Made by a program: the position numbers and the translations under genes
Shown: one piece after another, positions 29,239-31,477 of the stretch
Numbering within the stretch: position 1 is the stretch's first letter
Layout of the letters: each line of letters opens with the position of its first letter
DNA from: Pseudomonadota bacterium
GTDB lineage: Bacteria; Pseudomonadota; Alphaproteobacteria; Acetobacterales; Acetobacteraceae
DNA: 34,276 nt
Assembly (NCBI GenBank): GCA_021826425.1
Contig: JAKAZY010000005.1
Location: 1-34,276, forward strand
Direction: 5' to 3'
The notes under the pieces: generated by a model
The model's database searches: none
The model's input: only the letters and a program-made list of their open reading frames with translations
Told to the model about the DNA's origin: nothing

Positions 29239-30318
29239 TTGCCTAGCGATACCACAGGCCCGACAGCCGGTTCTTTTGCTAACACCTACCCGGTGAGCGG
29301 GGCCGCCAGCCAAGCCAACCGCAAGCTGGTCTCCAACTGGCTATTCCTGTTGGCGTTCATGATCTGGGTGATGGTTGGCATTGGCGGCTATACACGTGAT
29401 TCAGGCTCTGGCTTGTCGATCATGAAATGGGAGCCGATTATCGGCGTGCTGCCACCGCTCTCCCAGGACGCGTGGAACAAGGTGTTTGCGCTGTATAAGA
29501 CCATCCCGCAATACCATCTTGAGCATCAGGGCATGGACCTGGCCGGTTTCCAGAAGTTGTTCTGGCCAGAATATATCCACCGCCTCTGGGGGCGGCTGAT
29601 GGGGGCGGTACTGCTGCTGCCGCTGATTTTGTTCACGCTTACCGGGCGGATCGAGAAGCGGCTGATCCCCTGGCTGGTGTTGCTGTTCCTGCTCGGCGGG
29701 CTGCAAGGTTTTATTGGTTGGTTCATGGTCTCCTCGGGCTTCCGGGCGGACTCCATCGCGGTGGAAGGCTGGCGGCTTTCGTTACATTTCTTTGGCGCCA
29801 TGTTCCTGTTCGGCGCGGTGTTATGGACGGCTTTGGTAGTCCGCGCGCCGGAGCCCGTGCGGTATGAAGGCATGCGGGGCCTGCGTCGGCATACGCTGAT
29901 GGCCTTCCTGCTGCTGCTGCTGGCGATGTGGGGCGGCACCATGGTCTCGGGCATTCATGGCATCGCGGATTTTTCCATGGCCAAGAACATCGGAACTGGC
30001 GCGCCACCGCCCGGTTGGCCAATGAGCGGGCTGCTCAACAGCGCGGCAGCGATTATTTTCGGACATCAATTGCTGGCGGTGTTGGCGGCTGTGGCCATTC
30101 TGTCGCTCACCGTGCGGGCCCTGCGCGGTGAGGCCCCTGGCCCGGTGCGTGATGGCGCGTTGCTGGTGGGCGGGCTGGTTATTTTGCAATTCGTACTTGG
30201 CGTTACCGCTTTGGTTTCAGGCCGCATCGACATCGGCGTGGTGCACCAGATGAACGCGGTGCTGCTGCTGGGGGGCTTGCTGTTAATGCTCTACCGGCTG
30301 CGGGGTGCGGCGCGATGA
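29239..30318 (+). CDS. ctaA: Heme A synthase (COX15/CtaA), paralog 1 with E-x-x-H-R motif
   Basis: GGYTRDSGSGLSIMKWEPIIGVLPPLS...FQKLFWPEYIHRLWGRLMGA; later His residues in LSLHFFGA, FGHQLLA, VVHQMNAV. TTG start with GGAG upstream. Confidence 0.88.
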   Translation: MPSDTTGPTAGSFANTYPVSGAASQANRKLVSNWLFLLAFMIWVMVGIGGYTRDSGSGLSIMKWEPIIGVLPPLSQDAWNKVFALYKTIPQYHLEHQGMDLAGFQKLFWPEYIHRLWGRLMGAVLLLPLILFTLTGRIEKRLIPWLVLLFLLGGLQGFIGWFMVSSGFRADSIAVEGWRLSLHFFGAMFLFGAVLWTALVVRAPEPVRYEGMRGLRRHTLMAFLLLLLAMWGGTMVSGIHGIADFSMAKNIGTGAPPPGWPMSGLLNSAAAIIFGHQLLAVLAAVAILSLTVRALRGEAPGPVRDGALLVGGLVILQFVLGVTALVSGRIDIGVVHQMNAVLLLGGLLLMLYRLRGAAR

Positions 30319-30369
30319 TACTGAAGGCCGAGCTGGCGCGCGGGGATGGCGGGGCGGAGATGGTAAAGG

Positions 30370-30396
30370 TTCCGGCATCGCACAGCGATGCTGGAA
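30370..30396. other. Hairpin-forming inverted repeat at the junction of the two ctaA-like genes
   Basis: TTCCgGCATCGC-ACA-GCGATGCtGGAA, 12-bp stem with one mismatch. Confidence 0.55.
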
Positions 30397-30430
30397 AGCC
30401 ACCGGAGGGGGGCGCGCGCCGAATGAAAAG

Positions 30431-31477
30431 GTGAGGCAGGACCGCGCCGTTGGAAACTGGTTGCTGCTGCTGGCCGCCATGGTGTTTGGCATGGTGGTGG
30501 GGGGCGGCCATGCGCGGACCATCGGCGCCAGCTTTTCCATCCAGGTCTGGCGGCCGTTCACCGGCTTTATCCCGCCCATGAGCACGGCGGACTGGAACCA
30601 GCTTTACGGCTTGTTCCAGCACACGGCGCAATATCAGGCCCATCCGATCGGCATCGCGCAGTATAAAGCCTTGTTCTGGCCAATGTTTTTGGACCGTTGC
30701 TGGGGCAGGCTGATGGCCTGCGTGTTCCTTGTTCCCTTCGTGGTGTTTCTGCTGAAAGGCCGCATCCAGCGCAGATTGGCTTTGTGGCTCGGCTTCATCT
30801 TCCTGCTTGGCGCCGGGCAGGCGGCTTATGGCTGGTACATGGTGCAGACGGGCATGTATCCCGGTGTGCTTTCCCCGCCGCCGGAATGGGCGGCGCCGCA
30901 TCTGCTCTCCGCCATGTTGATTTTCGCGGCATTGCTTTGGACCGGCCTGAGCCTGCGCAACCCAGAGCCGGTGCGGATTGAGGGTGCTGCTACACTGCGC
31001 GGCTTTACCACCGCCACAATGGGGTTGGTCTGGCTGACCATGGGGTTTGGCGCGCTGGTCGCTACCTCCGGCGCGCTGAAAGTGTTCAACACCTTCCCGA
31101 CCATGGATGGCTCCTGGCTGCCGCCAGACATGTTCGGTCAAAACCCGGTTTGGATGAATTTCATCACCAACAAGGGTACGGTGCAGTTCTGCCACCGCCT
31201 GCTGGCGACCATCACCGCGTTAACGGCGTTGACCACCGCCGTGATGGGCCTGCGGATGAAGCTGCCGCCCGCCACGCGGGATTTATTTCTACTGTTGGGC
31301 GGGCTGGTGGCGTTGCAATATGTGCTCGGCATGGCGACACTCGTGCTGGGAAACAATGAGCTCGGCTTTGTGCATGAGCTGAATGCCGTGCTGCTGTTTG
31401 CCGCTGCCATTGGTGCCCACCATGGGTTGCGCGGCGCGGTGGCCGCCCCCGTTGGGGCGCTGGCGGCGGCGGAATAG
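30431..31477 (+). CDS. COX15/CtaA family protein, paralog 2 lacking E-x-x-H-R motif
   Basis: NWLLLLAAMVFGMVVGGGHARTIGASFSIQVWRPFTGFIPPMS...LFWPMFLDRCWGRLMA; C-half VFNTFPTMDGSWLPP...WMNFITNKGTVQFCHRLLA and FVHELNAV match COX15. Track start 30305 overlaps ctaA 1; GTG at 30431 is a plausible start. Confidence 0.82.
   Translation: MRQDRAVGNWLLLLAAMVFGMVVGGGHARTIGASFSIQVWRPFTGFIPPMSTADWNQLYGLFQHTAQYQAHPIGIAQYKALFWPMFLDRCWGRLMACVFLVPFVVFLLKGRIQRRLALWLGFIFLLGAGQAAYGWYMVQTGMYPGVLSPPPEWAAPHLLSAMLIFAALLWTGLSLRNPEPVRIEGAATLRGFTTATMGLVWLTMGFGALVATSGALKVFNTFPTMDGSWLPPDMFGQNPVWMNFITNKGTVQFCHRLLATITALTALTTAVMGLRMKLPPATRDLFLLLGGLVALQYVLGMATLVLGNNELGFVHELNAVLLFAAAIGAHHGLRGAVAAPVGALAAAE

Follow-up and report, generated by a model that had tools for sequence, protein, structure and literature searches.

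Tandem CtaA paralogs in Acidocella: a putative heme A synthase and a companion lacking the substrate-site Glu and His

The ctaA1-ctaA2 locus

The window analyzed here, a stretch of 34,276 nt that is contig 25 of an Acidocella genome (1.84 Mb, 81% complete), carries on its forward strand the genes apaG, folE, ctaA1, ctaA2, and tldD, in this order. A preceding sequence-only reading had noticed two adjacent, co-directional genes of the COX15/CtaA type, and the encoded peptides were found there as described. The features relevant to the following are listed below; key residues are referred to in the numbering of Bacillus subtilis CtaA (E57, H60, H123, H216, and H278).

29239..30318, + strand: ctaA1, CtaA/Cox15-type; N-half intact (E57/H60/H123), C-half diverged, H216/H278 kept
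29569..29580, + strand: E-Y-I-H motif of ctaA1; E111 and H114 of the ORF correspond to E57 and H60; invariant across all CtaA1
29785..29787, + strand: H183 of ctaA1, corresponding to H123
30064..30069, + strand: H276-Q277 of ctaA1, corresponding to H216 and the residue after it, which is Arg in single-copy CtaA
30244..30246, + strand: H336 of ctaA1, corresponding to H278
30305..31477, + strand: ctaA2 ORF; likely translated part 30431-31477
30683..30694, + strand: M-F-L-D of ctaA2 at the site of E-x-x-H, devoid of the catalytic Glu and of the first His
30899..30901, + strand: H157 of ctaA2, corresponding to H123; conserved
31184..31198, + strand: Q-F-C-H-R of ctaA2, the canonical mirror motif, with H255 corresponding to H216
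31373..31375, + strand: H315 of ctaA2, corresponding to H278; conserved, followed by Glu instead of the Gln of CtaA1 and single-copy CtaA
31489..32925, + strand: tldD, TldD/PmbA metalloprotease family (PF19289/PF19290/PF01523), marking the ancestral ctaA locus

Translation of ctaA2 probably starts at the GTG at 30431 rather than at 30305, since the proteins of relatives begin there, with MKxDRxVGNW. This start leaves a gap of 112 nt between ctaA1 and ctaA2 in the window. Of 49 pairs, 42 had an intergenic distance between -4 and +17 nt, and in 13 pairs the genes overlapped by 4 nt (an ATGA overlap being frequent). The spacer of the window (30319-30430) is the largest among the 49 pairs compared, and the ctaA2 frame is open across it.

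Both proteins are covered over their full length by PF02628 (COX15-CtaA; E = 7.5e-76 for CtaA1 and 1.1e-77 for CtaA2) and span nearly the whole model, with 255.6 and 261.6 bits, respectively, vs a curated cut-off of 29.9. Against NCBIfam NF045570, the equivalog model of alphaproteobacterial heme A synthase, they scored 180.5 and 185.2 bits, which is below the cut-off of 550, in a comparison that covered the two window proteins. A PDB sequence search with the single window proteins gave no match, and a PDB profile search returned 8aw5 as the sole match. The AlphaFold2 models were best matched by 6a2j and 8aw5, the heme A synthases of B. subtilis and Aquifex aeolicus (CtaA1: pLDDT 91.6, pTM 0.89, top match 6a2j; CtaA2: pLDDT 94.9, pTM 0.92, top matches 6a2j and 8aw5). 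Each of the two proteins is predicted to fold as a complete CtaA. Their closest named relative is, in both cases, Acidocella aminolytica (83-84% identity).

Distribution and origin of the pair

The pair was present in all 37 Acidocella genomes (36 besides that of the window), and none contained a separate canonical ctaA. Extra pieces occurred in three of them: two pairs in G013, and fragments at contig ends in G027 and G030. The two pairs of G013 (L054/L092 and L055/L083; contigs 34 and 35) show crossed affinities, a window-like ctaA1 standing next to an L090-like ctaA2 and vice versa, which reflects either recombination between species or chimeric assembly at contig ends. For this genome, CtaA1 and CtaA2 are placed discordantly in the tree, so the two genes may be exchanged separately, which speaks against an obligatory partnership of their products.

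Among 300 Acetobacteraceae genomes, ctaA2-like scores (at least 430 bits) were obtained for 14, exclusively from Acidocella, Acidiphilium, and a third genus, g48, and each of the 14 contained both genes. The co-conservation in relatives that had been proposed as a check was observed, the 14 including 6 of 6 sampled Acidiphilium genomes and the single g48 genome. Most other Acetobacteraceae with ctaA carry one copy, as had been presumed. Where other genomes of the family yielded two CtaA matches, the second was a canonical copy elsewhere, a fragment, or a weak match, and no tandem pair with E/H loss was seen among those inspected. Peptide patterns of ctaA2 hit 46 loci across the genomes of 84,980 species, all belonging to this group by name or similarity, in a pattern-based search that distant relatives could escape. 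A literature search yielded no description of the ctaA1-ctaA2 pair; an Acetobacteraceae phylogeny study that covers Acidocella and Acidiphilium and includes a Cox15 tree (PMC10715153) makes no mention of a CtaA duplication in the main-text passages naming Cox15.

In the phylogenetic tree, the paired sequences form one clade (support 100/99) and CtaA2 is monophyletic (100/100); at the base of the pair clade, the tree supports no particular branching sequence among CtaA2 and the two lineages of CtaA1. In the outgroup (L073, G159), ctaA is single-copy and immediately precedes tldD, and in Acidocella and Acidiphilium the order is ctaA1-ctaA2-tldD. Because the pair occupies the spot of single-copy ctaA beside tldD, its origin is tandem duplication in situ. 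Duplication of the ancestral, tldD-adjoining ctaA took place in an ancestor shared by Acidocella, Acidiphilium, and the third genus. Horizontal acquisition of ctaA2 was rejected: both paralogs nest with CtaA of the family, and they are located where ctaA and tldD adjoined ancestrally.

Key residues and divergence of the two halves

The key residues were compared in 49 CtaA1 and 50 CtaA2 sequences, using an alignment that included single-copy CtaA of the family and of the class. The contrast in motifs reported for the two window genes proved genuine throughout: E-x-x-H-R is present in 49 of 49 CtaA1 and in 0 of 50 CtaA2. All five of E57, H60, H123, H216, and H278 are found in every CtaA1. In CtaA2, the position of E57 is taken by M (46 sequences), N (3), or D (1), that of H60 by Asp in 50 of 50, and none contains an alternative E-x-x-H. 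The idea that the Met serves as a new heme ligand is weakened by the four sequences with N or D. The N-half loss claimed for gene 2 therefore concerns E57 and H60, but not H123, which is kept. With H123, H216, and H278, CtaA2 retains three of four heme-ligand histidines. Both ligands of the cofactor heme (H216 and H278) and the Q-F-x-H-R mirror motif, which also occurs in most single-copy CtaA, are present in 50 of 50 CtaA2, bearing out the canonical appearance of its C-half. According to a survey of heme A synthases, the Glu (E57) is strictly conserved and the residue H1 (corresponding to H60) is always His or Asn; an H1-to-Leu mutant was inactive, yet still bound hemes (PMC12808453). By this measure, CtaA2 falls outside heme A synthases, since the Glu and the His/Asn are both missing in 50 of 50.

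The C-half of gene 1 is divergent, as had been stated, but both histidines (H276 and H336) are kept. QFxHR is changed to IFGHQ in the window and reads I/L-F-x-H-Q in 38 of 38 Acidocella CtaA1; in Acidiphilium and g48 it is near canonical (Q-W/F-x-H-R). The residue following H216 is Q in 38 of 38 Acidocella CtaA1, vs R in 34 of 34 single-copy CtaA and in CtaA1 of Acidiphilium. Moreover, the NTFPLMDG loop is replaced in Acidocella CtaA1 by a loop with invariant residues of its own (G252, G254, P256, and P257). Because the C-half mirror motif is generally less conserved across the family (PMC12808453), the missing Q-F-x-H-R of Acidocella CtaA1 is not decisive for its membership among the enzymes. 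A separate change was observed in CtaA1 of Acidiphilium and g48 (L127-L133), where the N-half loop TRLT is replaced by VQND; CtaA2 retains Arg there.

The halves of the two proteins also differ in how much they have changed. On a fixed topology, the changes per site on the founding branch of CtaA2 amounted to 0.96 (N-half) vs 0.30 (C-half; 3.3-fold more in N), and those on the branch of Acidocella CtaA1 to 0.18 vs 0.38 (2.2-fold more in C). Single-copy relatives of the family change somewhat less in the N-half than in the C-half (mean tip branches of 0.19 vs 0.27), so the N-heavy change of CtaA2 opposes the usual bias. Identity to single-copy CtaA of the family was 54% (N) and 30% (C) for CtaA1, and 39% (N) and 40% (C) for CtaA2. 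In Acidocella, conserved sites that only a single paralog has lost numbered 0 (N) and 7 (C) for CtaA1, and 9 (N) and 2 (C) for CtaA2 (Fisher p = 0.002); no such half-split was found in Acidiphilium (p = 0.55). Beyond the half-split, site-level complementarity was not observed, there being no deficit of double losses. Because the half-split occurs in Acidocella and not in Acidiphilium, the E/H loss of CtaA2 is the earlier, clade-wide, and ancestral event, and the C-half drift of CtaA1 the later one, confined to Acidocella.

"Complementary loss", the term under which the pair had first been described, is therefore only partly right: the halves of the two paralogs diverge asymmetrically, and the paralogs are co-conserved in the clade without decay, but none of the five key residues is missing from CtaA1, and in Acidiphilium CtaA1 lacks the split. 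Nei-Gojobori dN/dS between close pairs was about 0.04-0.4 for both genes, which are rough values, as GC-rich synonymous sites saturate. Purifying selection acts on both genes. Covariation of the ctaA1 and ctaA2 rates beyond that with tldD was weak (partial r = 0.34-0.36; ctaA1-tldD given ctaA2, 0.36 in the full set) and lends little to the idea of a joint complex.

Roles of the two proteins

An aa3-type COX1 is encoded in the genome of the window and in the Acidocella genomes searched. The operon in the window's genome comprises COX1 and SURF1 (profile match) together with COX2, CtaB, and COX3 (open frames read). As aa3-type oxidase genes are present, heme A is needed. SURF1 was found in 15 of 15 genomes of the clade, which rules out that CtaA2 replaces it. 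Cox11 (PF04442) is missing from the same number of Acidocella, Acidiphilium, and g48 genomes (L154, in the window's genome, contig 110: 8461-13843, and 14 others), despite the aa3 oxidase and SURF1; it is present in five single-ctaA relatives. Caa3_CtaG (PF09678), tentatively regarded as an alternative factor for assembling CuB (PMC9145763), occurs in 15 of 15 clade genomes, so CtaA2 is not needed as a substitute for Cox11 either.

Both proteins resemble type 2 heme A synthase (alphaproteobacterial CtaA and mitochondrial Cox15; PF02628) in being full-length and of the alphaproteobacterial kind, CtaA1 with all five residues. Type 2 synthases are normally encoded by one gene, however, whereas here a tandem pair is found, with CtaA2 devoid of E57/H60 and a diverged C bundle in Acidocella CtaA1. 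Retention of the pair suggests that the enzyme has come to depend on a partner without catalytic activity, or to be modulated by it. The explanation to which we give about an even chance is that CtaA1 is the heme A synthase and CtaA2 a pseudoenzyme partner, both joined in a mixed oligomer via their heme-b C bundles. After duplication, CtaA1 would have stayed a heme A synthase with the oxidation site in its N bundle (for the mechanism, see PMC8239418), and CtaA2, having lost the substrate-site pair Glu57 and His60, would have become a presumably inactive paralog, in which the four-helix bundle of the C-half persists with its two heme-b ligands. In the putative mixed oligomer, the oxidation site would be that of CtaA1, and CtaA2, carrying heme b, may serve as a scaffold or relay electrons. 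The later loss of much canonical sequence from the C bundle of Acidocella CtaA1 would be expected if CtaA2 had assumed part of the role of this bundle.

Taken together, adjacency, co-conservation, and the half-specific rates are most simply explained by a mixed oligomer; co-occurrence is strict and the layout operon-like, as for a hetero-oligomer with a pseudoenzyme subunit. The trimer of the A. aeolicus enzyme (8aw5), the core of which is built by the C bundles (PMC7327177), has the same fold and suggests a route for assembling CtaA1 with CtaA2, but it is a homo-oligomer from one gene, whereas the assembly proposed here would be a hetero-oligomer. In the half-length archaeal type 1A heme A synthase of Aeropyrum pernix, function is likewise spread over more than one polypeptide; that enzyme, however, is a half-size homo-oligomer and not a pair of full-length, diverged paralogs. 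Retention of respiratory proteins after loss of cofactor ligands has a parallel in the bc1 complex of Acidocella and Acidiphilium, although the relevant passages of that work (PMC10715153) concern bc1 and, in acetous taxa, COX1.

The subfunctionalised, half-intact subunits envisaged from the sequence agree with the half-split in Acidocella, but not with the intact C-half ligands of gene 1, the result for Acidiphilium, or the different ages of the two divergences; the observations are better explained by one catalytic and one inactive subunit than by two subunits of which each is half-dead. An obligate hetero-oligomer, with catalysis in the N bundle of CtaA1, the heme-b function in the C bundle of CtaA2, and neither Acidocella protein making heme A alone, is a tentative and rather doubtful extension. 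Since CtaA1 has all five key residues, it may work alone, and since its C-half is near canonical in Acidiphilium, the division of labour would be looser there.

The main rival is a free-standing role of an inactive CtaA2, be it as a membrane heme-b cytochrome, as a carrier of heme O or heme A, or as a factor inserting heme into oxidase subunit I. Three ligand histidines are kept, the invariant Asp at H60 speaks for a new state under conservation and not for loss at random, and known enzymes retain heme binding when H1 is mutated (PMC12808453); on the other hand, ctaA2 strictly adjoins ctaA1 and often overlaps it, which suggests a joint product, and SURF1, the usual helper of heme insertion, is present throughout the clade, so that CtaA2 is no simple substitute. 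This role is possible, if on the whole improbable. That CtaA1 is complete, alone or as a homo-oligomer, and merely modulated by CtaA2, for example, by competition for the heme O of CtaB or by braking of mixed oligomers, would agree with its invariant set of five residues, but is unlikely given that the C-half in Acidocella departs from near-invariant residues (the mirror motif and the NTFPLMDG loop), which is unexpected for such an enzyme. Activity of CtaA2 itself as a heme A synthase, by means of a displaced acid (the Asp one helical turn past the lost Glu) in an altered mechanism or on another heme substrate, could build on the Asp in all 50 sequences, yet it is very improbable in view of the strictly conserved Glu and the His/Asn at H1 in the enzymes surveyed (PMC12808453). 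A functionless duplicate or an assembly artefact, for which the lost catalytic residues might speak, can be dismissed: the pair is not a decaying copy of one strain but occurs in three genera, in isolates and drafts of many species over long divergence, with invariant new residues and purifying selection at dN/dS well below 1, which also rules out a decaying pseudogene.

An enzyme with an inactive partner, as favored here, bears on two open questions, namely, what the cofactor heme b does in the C-half and why heme A synthases oligomerize. Mutations in COX15, the human homologue, cause fatal disease. The natural separation into CtaA2, with the cofactor site only, and CtaA1, with the substrate site and an altered cofactor half, would permit studying the halves apart. 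The pair also illustrates a stepwise path, in which the catalytic residues are lost in one copy and the cofactor half of the other then drifts, in one genus only.
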